64,000 nt of DNA from Pseudonocardia sp. N23 (GTDB lineage: Bacteria; Actinomycetota; Actinomycetes; Mycobacteriales; Pseudonocardiaceae). Of this stretch, positions 193 to 23,361 are shown one piece after another. The notes below the pieces were generated by a model. That model had not been told where the DNA came from, searched no databases, and was given only the letters and a program-made list of their open reading frames with translations. The stretch spans positions 1-64,000 of the forward strand of contig NZ_BEGX01000052.1 in assembly GCF_002583555.1 (NCBI RefSeq). The letters are read 5' to 3'. The number at the start of each line of letters is the position of its first letter. Positions within the stretch are counted from its first letter, which is position 1. A program made the translations under genes and the position numbers.

Positions 193-2376
193 TCAGCGTG
201 GACCCGTCGCACCTTGGTCGTCCTGACCTGCAATGACATCCGTCCGCGAGGTCCCGGTGCGTGCGTCGGACGGCTCGGAGCGCTGACGTTCGTCGCTCAC
301 AGTGACGGCCGCCACCTTGGCGAAATCATCGTCCTCCGCGGTGGGCGTAGGGGTTCCCGTCGCCAGGCGGTTCAGCATCGCGTTGTACGCCTTCAGGTCC
401 GCGTCGTCGTCCGCATCCGCACGGCGATCATCGCGCCGGGCCGACCGTTCGTCGTGGCGTGACCACTGGACGAGCAGCACGATGATGACCAGTAGCAGGG
501 GGATTTCGCCGGAAGCCCAGGTCAGGCCACCGCCGAGCTGCTGGTCGCGCATCAGGTCGGGCACCCACGGCAGGCCCAGGCCCCGGTAGAACGTCCCGCC
601 GATGATCTCGTTCGAGCTCATCAGCGCGACGCCGAAGAACGCGTGGAACGGCACCGACGCGAAGACCACCCCCAGCCGGGCGACCGGTGGCAACCGGCGT
701 GGTGCCGGGTCCACCCCGATGAGAGGCCAGAAGAACAGCCAGCCCACCAGCAGGAAGTGGGCGTTCATGGCCAGGTGCGCCCAGTGCTGGTTGAGCGATG
801 CCTCGAACAGGTTCGAGAAGTACAGGGCGTAGTAGCTCCCGACGAACAGCGGCAGCGTGATCAGCGGATGCGTCAGCCAGCGCGCCACCGGGGAGTGGAC
901 GGCGGCGAGGATCCACTCGCGGGGCCCGTCGGGACGGTCACGACCTGCAGGAGGCAAGGCGCGCAACGCGAGCGTGACGGGCGCCCCGAGCACCAGCAGG
1001 ATCGGCGCGAGCATCGACAGCATCATGTGCTGACCCATGTGCACGCTGAACATCGACGGCGCGTAGCGGCCCACGCCCGAGCTGGTGGCCAGCAGCAGCA
1101 CCGCACACCCGCAGAACCAGGCGATGGAGCGGCCGACCGGCCACGCGTCGCCCCGCCGTCGCAACTTCCTGATCCCGACCACGTACAGGGCCACCATCAG
1201 CAGCGCCAGCGAGCCGTAGATCAGGCTGAAGCGCCAGTCGAGGAGCAGGCGTACGAGGGTCGGCGGACCGTCGAGGTCGTACCCGATGACGGCCTCGGTG
1301 ATGCTCGGCGGCGCGGCCCCGGTGTCGGGCGGGGCGCTGCGCCCCAACGCGACCGCGAGGCCGATCGTCCCCAGCATCAACAGGATCTCGACGCCGCCCA
1401 GCGCGACGAGGGCCTTCGTGCGGCCGACGGCGGCAGCGGCGACGGTTCGCCTGCGGTGCAACGCACCCAGGACGCCGAGCAGGATCAGTGCCACCGTCTT
1501 CGCGACGACGAGCGCGCCGTACTCCGACGTGAACAGAGCCGACAACGGCACCCGCACGAGGGCGTTGACCACTCCTGTGACGGCCAGGACCACCCAGCAG
1601 ACGAGCGCCAGCGCCGAGAAGCGGGGCACGGCCGTCGACAAGGCGGTGGCGCGGTCGCGGTTGGCCCGGCTGCTCGCGAGGACCAGTACTGCGGCGAGCC
1701 CACCGACCCACAACGACGCGCCCAGGATGTGCAGGACCAGGCTGTCGGTGGCGACGTCGTGCGATCCGCCCGCCGCCGAGTGCCCGGTGAGCGACACCGG
1801 CAGCGGGCCGGCCATTGCGAGGCCGAACGCCACGACCGTCCAGCCCCAGCTCAGCACCAGCCGCGTCGCGACGAGCACCACCAGCGCGAACACGGCCGTC
1901 AGCGACCAGGCGGACGCCGCGGAGATCTTGGGGACCAGGTCGACGAGCAGCCCGGGACTCAGGACGTCGGACACCGGCCGGCCCATGGTGTCGGCGACGT
2001 TGAGCGGCACCAGGAGCACCGCGCAGACGAACCACGCTGACGCCGTCCACGAGGCGACCCGGACGGCGCGGTAGCCGGACACGTCGAGATAGCCGCCCTT
2101 CTGGGGCGGCACGAAGAACGCGGCGAGCAGCAGGAAGCCGATCGTCAGCACCATCGCGACCTCGGAGAGCGACCGAACGGCCGGCAACGCGACCGTCGTC
2201 AGCTCCCCGGGGTCGGGCAGACCCAGCAGGATCGCGGGGCGGGCGCCCGTGAGCACGGTCAGTCCTGCGGCGACGAGCATCGCGATGCCCGCCCCGAGCC
2301 CGATGAGACCGGCGGCCCCGGACGATGACGTCCCGGCCTTCCGTGTCGCGGGGGGCCCGGCGGTCGTCTGCGCCAT
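193..2376 (-). CDS. CopD-CtaG fusion membrane protein (copper handling / cytochrome oxidase assembly)
   Basis: Polytopic membrane protein of about 727 aa. The first half (about residues 15-350) has the many hydrophobic segments of the CopD copper-resistance family. The second half (about 375-640) matches the CtaG/caa3 oxidase assembly family, with histidines in segments such as SVHMGQHMML and NQHWAHLAMNAHFLL. The acidic, Asp/Arg-rich tail is probably cytosolic. In actinobacteria such fusions are linked to copper delivery for respiratory oxidases; that role is family knowledge. The start at 2376 (MAQTTAGPP) was chosen because the longer frame adds only a Pro/Arg/Ser-rich stretch. It lies 34 bases downstream of the phosphatase gene on the same strand and may be cotranscribed. 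The 192 bases beyond its stop, to the window edge, contain no gene I can support. Confidence 0.88.
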   Translation of the reverse strand: MAQTTAGPPATRKAGTSSSGAAGLIGLGAGIAMLVAAGLTVLTGARPAILLGLPDPGELTTVALPAVRSLSEVAMVLTIGFLLLAAFFVPPQKGGYLDVSGYRAVRVASWTASAWFVCAVLLVPLNVADTMGRPVSDVLSPGLLVDLVPKISAASAWSLTAVFALVVLVATRLVLSWGWTVVAFGLAMAGPLPVSLTGHSAAGGSHDVATDSLVLHILGASLWVGGLAAVLVLASSRANRDRATALSTAVPRFSALALVCWVVLAVTGVVNALVRVPLSALFTSEYGALVVAKTVALILLGVLGALHRRRTVAAAAVGRTKALVALGGVEILLMLGTIGLAVALGRSAPPDTGAAPPSITEAVIGYDLDGPPTLVRLLLDWRFSLIYGSLALLMVALYVVGIRKLRRRGDAWPVGRSIAWFCGCAVLLLATSSGVGRYAPSMFSVHMGQHMMLSMLAPILLVLGAPVTLALRALPPAGRDRPDGPREWILAAVHSPVARWLTHPLITLPLFVGSYYALYFSNLFEASLNQHWAHLAMNAHFLLVGWLFFWPLIGVDPAPRRLPPVARLGVVFASVPFHAFFGVALMSSNEIIGGTFYRGLGLPWVPDLMRDQQLGGGLTWASGEIPLLLVIIVLLVQWSRHDERSARRDDRRADADDDADLKAYNAMLNRLATGTPTPTAEDDDFAKVAAVTVSDERQRSEPSDARTGTSRTDVIAGQDDQGATGPR

Positions 2377-10243: not shown

Positions 10244-11005
10244 ATGACGGTACTCGGACGGTTCTCACTCGAGGGCAGGGTCGCGATCGTGACGGGCGCG
10301 TCGTCGGGGCTCGGGGTCGCATTCGCGAAGGCGCTCGCGGAGGCCGGGGCCGACGTCGTACTCGGGGCGCGGCGCGCCGACCGGCTCGACGACACCCGCA
10401 AGCTGGTGGAGAACCTCGGCCGCCGCGCGGTCGCGGTGGCCACCGACGTCGCGCTCCAGCCGGACTGCCAGAACCTCGTCGACACGGCGATGGCCGAGCT
10501 CGGCCGGGTCGACGTCCTGGTCAACAACGCCGGCATCGGCACCGCGGTCCCCGCGACCCGGGAGACCGTGGAGGAGTTCACCCGGGTCATCGACGTCAAT
10601 CTCAACGGCTGCTACTGGATGGCTCAGGCCTGCGGGCGCGTCATGGAGGCGGGCAGCAGCATCGTCAACATCTCGAGTGTCCTCGGGCTGACGACGGCGA
10701 GCCTGCCCCAGGCCGCGTATGCGGCGAGCAAGGCCGGCCTGATCGGGCTGACCCGCGACCTCGCCCAGCAGTGGGGCGGGCGCAAGGGCATCCGCGTCAA
10801 CGCCCTGGCGCCCGGCTTCTTCACCTCCGAGATGACCGCCCAGTACCGGCCCGGCTACCTGGACTCGATGATGGCGCGGGTGCCCTTGGGCCGCAAGGGA
10901 GATCCGGAGGAGCTGGCCGCCGCGCTGGTGTTCCTCGCGAGCGACGCCGGCGGCTACGTCACCGGCCAGACCCTGGCCGTCGACGGCGGTATGACCGTCA
11001 CCTGA
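10244..11005 (+). CDS. SDR family oxidoreductase
   Basis: 253-aa classical short-chain dehydrogenase with TGASSGLG (cofactor), NNAG, the catalytic Ser in NISSVLG and YAASK (Tyr and Lys), and a C-terminal GQTLAVDGG. It resembles the FabG/glucose-1-dehydrogenase group; the substrate is unknown. The start at 10244 (MTVLGRFSLEGR) has GAGGAGAGCG just upstream. It ends at the strong hairpin 11015-11054, so it is probably a single-gene transcript. Confidence 0.92.
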   Translation: MTVLGRFSLEGRVAIVTGASSGLGVAFAKALAEAGADVVLGARRADRLDDTRKLVENLGRRAVAVATDVALQPDCQNLVDTAMAELGRVDVLVNNAGIGTAVPATRETVEEFTRVIDVNLNGCYWMAQACGRVMEAGSSIVNISSVLGLTTASLPQAAYAASKAGLIGLTRDLAQQWGGRKGIRVNALAPGFFTSEMTAQYRPGYLDSMMARVPLGRKGDPEELAAALVFLASDAGGYVTGQTLAVDGGMTVT

Positions 11006-11014
11006 GCCCCGCAC

Positions 11015-11054
11015 ACGGGAACGCCCCGGGACCGTGGTCCCGGGGCGTTCCCGT
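11015..11054. terminator. Strong bidirectional hairpin between SDR and repeat-protein gene 1
   Basis: Perfect 19-bp arms, beginning ACGGGAACGCCCC, around a 2-base centre. It sits 9 bases after the SDR stop and 12 bases after the stop of the convergent small gene, so it can serve both. Confidence 0.9.
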
Positions 11055-11066
11055 CTGCGGGCCGGC

Positions 11067-11321
11067 TCAGTGGTGGCCGTAGCCGCCGCCCGAGTGGCTG
11101 TAGTCGTCGTTGCAGTGCTTGTAGTCCTGGTCGTGGCAGCTCTTGTCGTCGTAGGACTTGTCGTCCCAGCAGTGGTCGGTCTGCTTGTAATCCCAGCAGT
11201 GGCTGTACTTGTCGTCCCAGTCGTTGTGGGGCTTGTAGTCGTCGTTGCAGTGCTTGTAGTCGTCGTTGTTCCAGGACTTGTCGTCGTGGTGCTTGCTGGT
11301 GGAGCAGTGGGACTTGAACAT
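11067..11321 (-). CDS. MFKS-type Cys/Asp/Lys/Tyr repeat protein 1 (unknown family)
   Basis: 84 aa from the ATG at 11321 (MFKSHCSTSKHHDDKS), with GAAGAGG upstream. It is built of irregular units such as NDDYKHC, NDWDDKYSHC, DHCWDDK and SYDDKSC. It has 6 Cys, about 19 Asp and many Lys, Tyr, Trp and His, and no Ala, Leu, Val, Ile, Arg or Glu at all. There is no signal peptide or membrane segment. Third codon positions are almost all C or G, so this is a genuine reading frame despite its odd composition. A paralogue lies at 23095-23361 with the same MFKS start and design. It stands alone between the hairpin at 11015 and its own upstream region. Metal binding through Cys/His/Asp or a structural role is possible; the function is unknown. 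Confidence 0.8.
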   Translation of the reverse strand: MFKSHCSTSKHHDDKSWNNDDYKHCNDDYKPHNDWDDKYSHCWDYKQTDHCWDDKSYDDKSCHDQDYKHCNDDYSHSGGGYGHH

Positions 11322-11370
11322 GGCGGGCCTCTTCGGTGTGTGGGGGTTGCTGTGGGGGTGTTGCTCTGCT

Positions 11371-11449
11371 GAGGAGAACTCTGCCGCCCACGAGGCCTCG
11401 TTCCCATCGAGCACACCCCCGTTCCCGAGAGGGAGAACCCCACTCCTGC
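11371..11449 (-). promoter_or_regulatory. Upstream elements shared with repeat-protein gene 2
   Basis: On the minus strand, GCAGGAGTGGGG (11438-11449) and GGCAGAGTTC followed by a TCCTC tract (about 11371-11386) are repeated upstream of the paralogue. The second block lies 64 bases before the ATG here and 69 in the paralogue, so position as well as sequence is kept. It is probably a promoter or leader element; the sigma factor is not recognisable. Confidence 0.5.
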
Positions 11450-11450
11450 C

Positions 11451-14258
11451 TCAGCGCGGCACGCCGACGGGTCGCGCCCGATCGGCCAGGAGCTCCAGGA
11501 CGTGGACGTAGTCGTGCCCGGTCGCGCGGCTCATCCCCAGCTCGCAGGTGCGGTTGCAGGACACGTACGCGTCGGCGTCGACCGCCGCGAGCTCCCTGGC
11601 CTGCGGGGCGGTCGCCGCGGCGGTCAGCTCGGGGTGCAGCAGCCCGCGGTCGCCCGCGAACCCGCAGCAGCCCCACGAGTCGGGGACGACGACCTCGGCC
11701 GCCACCGCCGCCGCGAGCCGGGTCAGCGGCTCGACCAGGCCGAGCTGGGTCGCCGAGCACGTCGGGTGCAACACGATGCGCGGCAACGGCTCCGCCACTG
11801 TCAACGTCGGCAGCAGGTGCTCGGCGGCGTAGCCGACGACGTCGACGACCTCGATGCCGCGGTACTCCTCGGGCCCGCCGGCGATCATGATCCTCAGGCC
11901 CTCGGTGCACGACGACGCGTCCGACACCACCGGGAGCCGCCCGCCCCGGGTGGCCGTCCACAGCGCCGGGAGCACCACCGCCGCCATCGCGGCCGCGCCG
12001 TCGAGCAGCCCCTTCGACTTCCACGGGGTGCCGCAGCACAGCTTCGGCAGGTCGGCCGGGGCACCGACGCGGATCCCGGCGCCGCGACAGAGCCGGACGA
12101 ACGCGGCGGCCGCGCCCTCGCCGGTCGGCCCGAACATCGCCCCGGTGCACGACGGGAACAGCACCAGGTCGGGCTCCCCGGCCGTGAGGCCGTCGGGCGT
12201 GCGCCGTCCCCCACCGGGAAGGTCGCGCGACCACAGCGGAACGTCCCCGACCTTGCGCATCGCCGCCGACACCGGACCCGCCGCCGCGGGGACGGCCTTC
12301 GCGACCGACAGCGCCACCCCGAGCGTGCGGGTCGTCGCACCCCAGTGCTTCGCCGCGAACGCCCAGCCGCGCCCCGCCGCCGGCCCGGATCGCTCGGCCC
12401 GCAGCCTGCGGACCAGGTCACCGGTGTTGATCGCGACCGGGCACGCGGTGGCGCACATGCCGTCGACGGCGCAGGTGTCGACGCCGTCGTAGGCGTACTC
12501 GTCCTCCAGCTCCGCGACGAGCCCGGCGTCACCGTCGGCCCGCGCGCGTTCCAGCTCGCGGCGCAGGACGATGCGCTGGCGCGGGGTCGTCGTCAGGTCG
12601 CGGCTCGGGCACACAGGCTCGCAGAACCCGCACTCGACGCAGCGGTCGACCTCGATCTCGACACGCGGCGCCGACTTGAGGTCGCGCAGGTGGGCGGTCG
12701 GGTCGTCGTCCAGGACGACGCCGGGCGAGAGCAGCCCGCGAGGGTCGCACAGCCGCTTGATCTCGCGCATCACCTCGTACAGCTCGTCGCCGTACTGGCG
12801 GCGCACGAACGGCGTCATCATCCGGCCGGTGCCGTGCTCGGCCTTGAGCGTCCCGCCGTGCGCGAGGACGAGATCGACCATGTCGTCGGTGAAACGCCCG
12901 AACCGGTCGCGGCCGGCGCCGGCGCCGAGCTCCTCGGTGAGCATGAAGTGGACGTTGCCGTCCTTGGCGTGGCCGAAGATCACCGCGTGGTCGTAGCCGT
13001 GCTTGCCGAACAGCGCGATCAGGCCCTCGCACGTGGGCAGCAGGTCGGGGACGGGAACGGCGATGTCCTCGAGGAGCGCGGCCGTGCCGGGCGGCCGGGC
13101 GCCGGCGACCTTCGCGTAGAGGCCCTTGCGCAGCTTCCACAGCCCGGCCTTCGCGGTCGGGTCGCCCGACAGCTCGCCGGAACCGTGCAGCGGCAGCCGG
13201 GCCAGCAACGGGGCCGCGGCGGCGCTGCGTGAGTCGGCCTCGTCGGCGGTGTGGGCGCGGTACTCGACGAGCAGCGCGGCGTGCTGCTCGACGGTGAGCG
13301 CGCGCAGCCGCGGGTCGGCGTCGGCGTCGGACTGCCCGACCCGCAGCGACGTGGCGTCGAGCAGCTCCACCGTCGCCGGCCCGGAGGCGACCAGGTCGGG
13401 CAGGGCCCGGTTCGCGGCCGCGAGGCTGTCGAAGATCAGCAGGCCGGTGCGGGTGTGGGCGAGGACGGGCACGGTCCGCATCGTGATCGACGCGATGAAC
13501 GCGAGGGTCCCCTCCGAGCCGACGACGAGGTGGGTGAGCACATCGACCGGGCGGTCGTGGTCGAGGAACGAGTTCAGGCCGTAGCCCATGGTGTTCTTGA
13601 GCGAGAACAACGTCTCGATCGTCGTGCGGGCGGCCGCGTCGCCGCGGAGCCGGTCGCGCAACCGGGAGAGCCCGGCCCACAGCTCGGGCTCGCGGGCCCG
13701 CAGCTCGTCGTCGGAACCGGGCAGGCCCGTGTCCAGCGTCGTCCCCGAGGGCAGGACCAGCTCGAGCGAGTCGATCAGGGCGTAGGAGTTCGCGACGGTC
13801 CCGCACGCCATCCCGGACGAGTTGTTCGCGACGACCCCGCCCAGTGTGCAGGCCACCTCGCTGGCCGGGTCGGGCCCCAGCATCCGGCCGTACCGGGCGA
13901 GGCGGGTGTTGACCGAGCGGACCGTGGCGCCGGGCCCGACCCGCACCCGGGCGCCGTCGTCGAGGATCTCGATGTCGCGGAAGTGCCGCCGGGTGTCGAC
14001 GAGGATGCCGTCGGTGACCGCCTGTCCCGAGAGGCTGGTGCCCCCGGAGCGGAAGGTCAGCGCGACACCGGTGGCGGCCGCCGTCGTGAACAGGCGGGCG
14101 ACGTCGCCCGCCGACGCCGCCGTGACCACAGCCTTCGGGGTGCGGGCGAAGTGCGAGGCGTCGTGGGCCATGCCCAGCCGGTCGATCGCCCGGGCCCGCA
14201 CCGCGTCCGGCCCGACCGCCGCGCTCAGGGCATCGGCCAGGGCCGACTCGGTGTTCAC
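11451..14258 (-). CDS. FAD-linked oxidase / Fe-S fusion, D-lactate dehydrogenase type
   Basis: 935 aa. The N-terminal PCMH-type FAD domain (about residues 25-230, FRSGGTSLSGQAVTDG and GGVVANNSSGMACG) is followed by the FAD-oxidase C-terminal domain (about 250-510, including FGHAKDGNVHF and LKAEHGTGRMM). Next comes a two-cluster ferredoxin part with CVECGFCEPVCPS and CAVDGMCATACP. Last are two CCG-type repeats (SCTGAMFG/LCCGTPW and HPTCSATQLG/WGCCGFAGD). This is the GlcD-GlpC-like fusion that oxidises D-lactate or a similar 2-hydroxyacid and passes electrons to quinone. The start is the GTG at 14258 with GGGAGA upstream. It is followed after 129 bases by the repeat-protein gene. Confidence 0.9.
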   Translation of the reverse strand: MNTESALADALSAAVGPDAVRARAIDRLGMAHDASHFARTPKAVVTAASAGDVARLFTTAAATGVALTFRSGGTSLSGQAVTDGILVDTRRHFRDIEILDDGARVRVGPGATVRSVNTRLARYGRMLGPDPASEVACTLGGVVANNSSGMACGTVANSYALIDSLELVLPSGTTLDTGLPGSDDELRAREPELWAGLSRLRDRLRGDAAARTTIETLFSLKNTMGYGLNSFLDHDRPVDVLTHLVVGSEGTLAFIASITMRTVPVLAHTRTGLLIFDSLAAANRALPDLVASGPATVELLDATSLRVGQSDADADPRLRALTVEQHAALLVEYRAHTADEADSRSAAAAPLLARLPLHGSGELSGDPTAKAGLWKLRKGLYAKVAGARPPGTAALLEDIAVPVPDLLPTCEGLIALFGKHGYDHAVIFGHAKDGNVHFMLTEELGAGAGRDRFGRFTDDMVDLVLAHGGTLKAEHGTGRMMTPFVRRQYGDELYEVMREIKRLCDPRGLLSPGVVLDDDPTAHLRDLKSAPRVEIEVDRCVECGFCEPVCPSRDLTTTPRQRIVLRRELERARADGDAGLVAELEDEYAYDGVDTCAVDGMCATACPVAINTGDLVRRLRAERSGPAAGRGWAFAAKHWGATTRTLGVALSVAKAVPAAAGPVSAAMRKVGDVPLWSRDLPGGGRRTPDGLTAGEPDLVLFPSCTGAMFGPTGEGAAAAFVRLCRGAGIRVGAPADLPKLCCGTPWKSKGLLDGAAAMAAVVLPALWTATRGGRLPVVSDASSCTEGLRIMIAGGPEEYRGIEVVDVVGYAAEHLLPTLTVAEPLPRIVLHPTCSATQLGLVEPLTRLAAAVAAEVVVPDSWGCCGFAGDRGLLHPELTAAATAPQARELAAVDADAYVSCNRTCELGMSRATGHDYVHVLELLADRARPVGVPR

Positions 14259-23094: not shown

Positions 23095-23361
23095 TCAGCT
23101 GTAGCTGTGGTCCCACTTGTTCTCGTGGCAGCCGTACTTGTCGTAGTCGCCCTTGTCGTAGTCTTCGCACTTGCCGTACTTGTCGTCCCAGCAGTCGTCG
23201 TACTTCGAGTACTTGTCGTCGCAGTCGTCGTACTTGTTGTACTTGTCGTCGCAGTCGTTCCACTTGTCGTTCTTGCCACCCCACTTGTCGTCACAGTCGT
23301 TCCACTTGTCGTTCTTCTCGCCGTAGCCGCCGGACTTGGTGGGGCAGATGCTCTTGAACAT
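23095..23361 (-). CDS. MFKS-type Cys/Asp/Lys/Tyr repeat protein 2 (unknown family)
   Basis: 88 aa from the ATG at 23361 (MFKSICPTKSGGYGEKNDKW), with a strong AGAAGGAG site. It is more regular than its paralogue: units such as KNDKWNDCDDKW, KNDKWNDCDDKYNKYDDC and SKYDDCWDDKY recur every 10-13 residues. It has 7 Cys and no Ala, Leu, Val or Arg. There is no signal peptide or transmembrane segment. Codons end almost entirely in C or G, arguing for real translation. It is monocistronic, with a strong hairpin downstream and upstream blocks shared with the gene at 11067. The function is unknown; Cys in an acidic aromatic context suggests metal binding, disulfide-linked assembly or a scaffold. Confidence 0.82.
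   Translation of the reverse strand: MFKSICPTKSGGYGEKNDKWNDCDDKWGGKNDKWNDCDDKYNKYDDCDDKYSKYDDCWDDKYGKCEDYDKGDYDKYGCHENKWDHSYS

Follow-up and report, generated by a model that had tools for sequence, protein, structure and literature searches.

The window, a 64,000-nucleotide stretch of a Pseudonocardia sp. N23 contig, contains two minus-strand genes of an MFKS family of small proteins, each with a conserved box upstream. The features discussed here are as follows.

11067–11321, minus strand: MFKS-family gene of the HC subtype, 84 amino acids, recognized by its translation, a GC3 of 0.98 and two further copies in the genome at 99% protein identity
11326–11334, minus strand: Shine-Dalgarno-like GAAGAGGCC upstream of the ATG; the last 22 bases before the ATG were compared in 30 units
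11370–11386, minus strand: conserved box CGGCAGAGTTCTCCTCA (exact), taken as part of a promoter; strict core GGCARRRT in 25/30 full-length units
11416–11450, minus strand: upstream block GGCAGGAGTGGGGTT...CGGGAACGGGGG, at the left border of the duplicated unit
11019–11050, minus strand: hairpin after the stop, its stem without a T run, a probable terminator judged by folding energy
23095–23361, minus strand: second family gene ('copy 2'), STCPSKS-like subtype, 88 amino acids
23415–23431, minus strand: box of the second gene, GGGCAGAGTTCCTCTCA

The 84-residue gene runs from an ATG at 11321 to a TGA at 11067 on the minus strand. Its frame stays open upstream to a GTG at 11414 (115 residues), and the ATG is favoured because GAAGAGG lies six bases 5′ of it and the MFKS start is conserved in homologues. 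As originally predicted, the product (D19, H12, K10, S9, Y8, C6, N5, W4, G4) contains no Ala, Leu, Val, Ile, Arg or Glu, the third codon positions are rich in C and G (GC by codon position 0.45/0.32/0.98), and the sequence looks translated rather than noise; frame and MFKS start are retained in homologues. D, K, Y, C, H, N and W make up 76% of the protein versus a mean of 16.5% (s.d. 8.2, maximum 62.6%) in 39 window ORFs, a contrast that is understated because this maximum implies at least one family ORF among the controls. A plus-strand reading (a Val-rich frame at 11034–11372) was rejected, as its GC3 would be 0.45, unlike other genes here, because those positions are the complement of the minus-strand first codon position. 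The 84-residue frame is a real gene and not a chance opening, since two further copies, 99% identical in protein, occur in the same genome.

A search of the N23 genome with the 84-residue protein returned the protein itself and those two copies, both on other contigs. Across the three near-identical copies, DNA identity is 96–99% over a stretch that, counted from the ATG, begins at −129 or −126 and ends between +257 and +300; outside these borders the flanks are unlike. A nine-member profile located 12 family places in this genome, one of them cut by a contig end; the gene at 23361–23095 is a divergent relative of the 84-residue gene. Two more places have the box and leader without a coding part. 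We read these as remnants of lost units (C19: L067, G000:C19:15638; C155: L070, G000:C155:14628), and the C155 remnant also keeps the ribosome-binding stretch and hairpin.

The Pseudonocardiaceae-wide search proposed with the original prediction did find homologues, all in Pseudonocardia. The family occurs in 4/62 genomes of the genus (profile A2, and again with profile A5), in those same 4 among the 390 genomes of the taxonomic family, which span 46 genera, with no other genus represented (profile A3, 16 members), and in 1/396 evenly drawn genomes of the phylum, that of N23 only (profile A5, covering the HC subtype and the C77 type). Profile A3 misses some HC-type copies seen by DNA search, so distant or weakly matching relatives may have escaped detection. 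The carriers are P. dioxanivorans CB1190 (10 distinct places), P. sulfidoxydans NBRC 16205 (5), the metagenome genome Pseudonocardia sp. SCN 73-27 (12, several being pieces at contig ends and three seen by DNA only) and Pseudonocardia sp. N23 (12); a common habitat was sought for these four and none was established. Full-length members number 30 (11 from N23, 10 from P. dioxanivorans, 5 from P. sulfidoxydans and 4 from SCN 73-27), and 29 of them start with MFKS. The exception is the counterpart in P. sulfidoxydans of the second gene of the window (L097 6001–6273; 83% DNA identity over 1102 bases), which carries ATA where the start ATG would be and is otherwise intact. A 33-residue copy in G033 (L123, G033:C19:63700-65400; 779–880, minus strand) keeps the start, stop and upstream block and looks like the product of a large in-frame internal loss. 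These genes thus form a narrowly distributed, multicopy Pseudonocardia family of dispersed stand-alone units.

Upstream architecture is shared by most units. The box core is absent from the four C77-type units and present in decayed form in Pd572. In 22/25 boxed units a GGGGG stretch precedes the box by a nearly fixed distance, 36 bases in 19 units and 37 in 3 (in the block at 11416–11450 it starts 36 bases ahead of the core), the remaining three having GTGGGG or no such stretch; the box-to-ATG distance ranges between 52 and 108 bases. Rigid upstream spacing followed by a variable leader is the pattern that a promoter would show. A 20-base version of the box (≤3 mismatches) matches 10 places in the N23 genome, of which 8 belong to units and 2 to the leaders that lack a coding part, and its reversed control matches 0; the boxes of the 84-residue gene and its two near copies are too divergent to be among the 10. 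Scans of 10950–11520 for T-run terminators and sigma-70 promoters found nothing. The hairpin region (11015–11058) has a predicted folding energy of −42.2 kcal/mol, and the hairpin sits between the 84-residue gene and a facing SDR gene. A frame beginning MRVRA downstream of several units was considered as a small gene and rejected; compared with the C155 remnant, it reads as hairpin.

The surroundings differ among genomes. In SCN 73-27, the oxidase side of the locus has a CBS-domain gene and a response regulator, which by eye we take to be Hrp1-like and DevR-like, followed by a unit truncated where the contig stops; another contig opens inside a unit and continues into an SDR gene, and these two contig ends may join. 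The CBS-domain gene and response regulator are missing from the window locus. In L124 (1–1600, G033:C44), a GGGACCTTGGTCCC palindrome accompanies the response regulator and CBS-domain gene adjoining a family unit. On contig C22 of G058 (L127), repeated GCGCAACCTCACTGCTGCGC-like stretches extend from the SDR gene to the contig end, and at the corresponding spot the window has the family gene in their place.

A rival reading takes the unit as a selfish or mobile cassette that spreads within the genome, with the protein serving the spread or riding as a passenger. The similarity of near-identical copies ends −126 to −174 to the left and +257 to +466 to the right of the ATG, C19 and C155 retain box and leader alone, contigs of both N23 and G033 end inside units, and the relative G033 does not have the C4 copy. 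At the C4 site, however, the one site examined, no terminal repeats or target duplication were seen (the 401 bases beside the copy lack direct repeats and contain two inverted pairs of 12–13 bases), and the copy's right end is not clean. Flanks also match across species for the C52b (1102 bases), C77 and C128 types, and composition appears to be under selection. We regard a mobile cassette as very unlikely.

The 30 full-length members consist mainly of D 21.6, K 13.0, S 11.3, Y 9.6, H 8.9, G 8.6, N 6.3, C 5.7 and W 5.2%, with 0/2,668 Leu residues and 0.1% each of Ala, Val and Ile. The original prediction had looked for homologues with a conserved frame and for a dN/dS away from 1 among relatives; the homologues exist, and the second expectation failed in part, raw NG86 values running from 0.19 to 2.10 and often lying near 1. 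Values were 0.19–0.45 in the C128 group, 0.79–1.44 in the C77 group, 0.73–1.46 in the C149 group, 1.15 for C52b, 2.10 for C114/C17 and 0.42 for one P. dioxanivorans pair, and two pairs had no synonymous change at all. GC3 is 0.91–0.99 across the 30 members, which depresses synonymous change, and dS is unreliable at such codon bias. Among single-base replacements, 5/67 involved A, V, L, I, M, F, P or R versus 31% expected (P = 4e-6 if independent, which the replacements are not fully, because certain sequences enter more than one (two) of the 12 pairs). The pattern reads as weak constraint on single residues and strong constraint on composition. It bears on the idea that the units are no genes but repeated DNA whose open frame is accidental: low-complexity DNA is repeated here and raw dN/dS is often near 1, as that idea would have it, but the same start and a stop recur in 30 copies (one with ATA for ATG) at uniformly high GC3 (0.91–0.99), and replacements preserve composition. 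We regard this explanation as extremely improbable.

Net charge varies less than its components. It lies between −8 and −11 in 28/30 members, and the exceptions (−4 and −5) are one near-identical P. dioxanivorans pair that the 70% filter leaves outside the 13 representatives (members <70% identical to one another). These 13 have a net charge of −9.08 (s.d. 0.86), with D+E ranging from 17 to 26, K+R from 8 to 17 and a correlation of r = 0.967 between them. A standard deviation as low as 0.86 arose in 0/3000 residue resamplings and in 0/4000 at each of eight block sizes (mean s.d. 2.9–5.7 by block resampling), and permuting K+R reached the observed value in 1/100,000; shared ancestry weakens these resampling tests. 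Charge changes also cancel in 11 hand-picked disjoint pairs, one exception member included (P = 0.016). In the 13 representatives, C+H and N+Q counts vary more than by chance, and Y+W, C, D+E and K+R counts, each taken singly, vary about as chance predicts. Mixing of charges exceeds the shuffled mean in 13/13 representatives, and in 4 of them it is beyond 95% of shuffles. Selection seems, from these comparisons, to act on bulk properties.

No neighbouring Cys lies within 6 residues in the 13 representatives, versus 20.9 expected; every spacing is at least 7 residues, and none of the 68 Cys falls in a CC, CxC or CxxC motif, so that Cys clusters of metallothionein type are disfavoured. Cys adjoins His at 6/6 sites in the 84-residue protein, at 27/36 in the seven HC-type representatives, two of them of C77 type (shuffled mean 10.1), and at 7/32 in the other six (shuffled mean 2.1). 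The main rival to our preferred reading builds on these pairs, taking the protein as a metal-buffering peptide that would bind Cu, Zn, Cd or Ni through its spaced His–Cys pairs and its acidic residues, some units being carried along with metal-resistance islands. P-type ATPases occur no more than 5 kb away from four units, of which two are on contig C127 of N23 and two in P. dioxanivorans (~4690 and ~4702 kb), with genes for ArsR, CDF, CopC or ZIP-like proteins nearby (the ZIP match falling below the Pfam cut-off), and a fifth unit, on C149, adjoins CbtA. P-type ATPase matches of all kinds number 10 in N23 and 14 in P. dioxanivorans, a density from which ~0.4 ATPase-near units would be expected among 22 versus the four observed; these four, however, form two islands, so the metal association rests on about two events, noticed after the fact. 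Moreover, full-length units in the islands belong to the other subtype, with 3 Cys and 2–9 His, an inspection by eye of the neighbours of HC-type units recognized no metal gene, and the absence of CC, CxC and CxxC also speaks against this function. Metal buffering is possible, although we would not expect it. Besides ArsR, P-type ATPases and a CDF transporter, the metal-resistance contig C127 (L033 and L047; G000) encodes a large AAA-domain protein, possibly a relaxase, and it bears two family units, one of which is truncated at the end of the contig.

The proteins are probably intrinsically disordered. AlphaFold gave the 84-residue protein a mean pLDDT of 39.7 and a pTM of 0.11, with 84/84 residues below 50, from only 7 sequences, and a low score is no proof of disorder; the GRAVY values of the two window proteins (−2.08 and −1.98) place them far on the disordered side of the charge–hydropathy line. 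The claim that the protein belongs to no known family held in Pfam and NCBIfam, which returned nothing above cut-off: the best Pfam match of the 84-residue protein was SCRL (E = 1.4, 9.6 bits versus a cut-off of 23), and the 16 members of A3 gave 0 Pfam families at E = 1 and one NCBIfam match at E = 0.55. Profile A3 matched 0 PDB chains at E up to 10, and Rfam returned for locus L001 four microRNA-type matches only, far below cut-offs. No match to the 84-residue protein was found by tblastn against phages and plasmids; in viral contigs, 27 pattern stretches yielded 0 confirmed members, and two exact-pattern matches were set aside as chance. The effect of the low-complexity filter was checked for the 84-residue protein (P0002) and for P0003, and searches with STCPSKS-like members say little because the filter leaves only the two ends of P0003. 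No literature title on this family was found within a coverage that excludes most subscription papers.

Disorder and hydrophilicity of this degree could indicate a cytosolic stress hydrophilin, that is, a disordered filler that shields enzymes during drying or starvation without specific binding. The GRAVY values, low complexity, several copies and common upstream block are all in keeping with such a role, but a passive filler leaves the 5.7% Cys, 5.2% Trp and 9.6% Tyr unexplained, together with the Cys spacing and the His–Cys pairs, and we consider it unlikely.

Our preferred reading is a disordered, multivalent chain that acts as cross-linkable protective material; we hold it tentatively, at a probability of roughly 0.38. 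The family proteins would work by composition, not fold, with separated Cys, Cys–His sites and Tyr/Trp serving as putative stickers on a soluble Asp/Lys chain. Near-identical duplicates would raise dosage, and at high dosage the chains may associate and then cross-link through inter-chain disulfides, metal bridges or dityrosine to give a protective cytoplasmic or coat-like material, the units perhaps being switched on together by one dedicated regulator. No signal peptide was seen by eye in the 84-residue protein, so a surface coat would need another route. Cys numbers of 2 to 8 and His numbers of 0 to 18 among members make a single chemistry for the whole family doubtful, and absence from most genomes of the genus means that the function is dispensable there. 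The raw dN/dS values, often near 1, count against a material role. Metal binding, a cross-linked scaffold and a condensate, the three guesses first offered for this protein, cannot be separated from sequence. In its fullest form, the preferred reading describes a new class of leucine-free disordered chains with single separated thiols and aromatic stickers, a net charge kept at about −9 by selection and high dosage from dispersed cassettes under one dedicated regulator, forming a redox- or metal-cross-linked protective matrix; this composite claim is doubtful.

The family appears to be a case in which selection holds the residue set, net charge and thiol spacing while the sequence drifts, here in small bacterial proteins over their whole length, with numerous paralogues in a genome. 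Composition-level selection can thereby be tested in a strain that is both named and sequenced, P. dioxanivorans CB1190, and, if the proteins do set into a material, the family would offer a genetically simple model of one.

Several known systems share parts of this description. CotC and CotU of Bacillus are small, low-complexity proteins rich in Tyr, Lys and Asp. The present family is also small and of low complexity, with Asp, Lys and Tyr at the levels given above, a likeness set by description only; it differs in adding Cys, Trp and His, in having more Asp than Tyr, in its actinomycete host and in its dispersed copies. One paper describes CotB, CotC and CotG as tyrosine-rich outer-coat multimers and elsewhere names CotC a laccase, which makes it a weak source (PMC10821481). 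The family's own Cys content is 5.7%, without CC, CxC or CxxC in the 13 representatives and with His beside Cys in one subtype. In this it is unlike metallothioneins, which have many Cys in CxC, CC and CxxC clusters, although it shares with them a small size, the presence of Cys and the lack of a hydrophobic core. Hydrophilins and dehydrins are very hydrophilic and disordered, with few hydrophobic residues; the family is likewise hydrophilic (GRAVY −2.08 for a window protein) and probably disordered, for which the pLDDT of 39.7 is an indirect sign, but unlike them it has abundant Cys, Trp and Tyr. Mussel byssus adhesive proteins, secreted animal proteins rich in Tyr, Lys, Gly, Asp and Cys that form a cross-linked material, resemble the family in composition only. 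For the bulk selection proposed here, the likeness is to a disordered region of Ste50, in which sequence drifts while a bulk property such as net charge is kept (PMC6634968). That region, as described there, belongs to a larger yeast signalling protein, whereas the Pseudonocardia family consists of whole small bacterial proteins with many paralogues.
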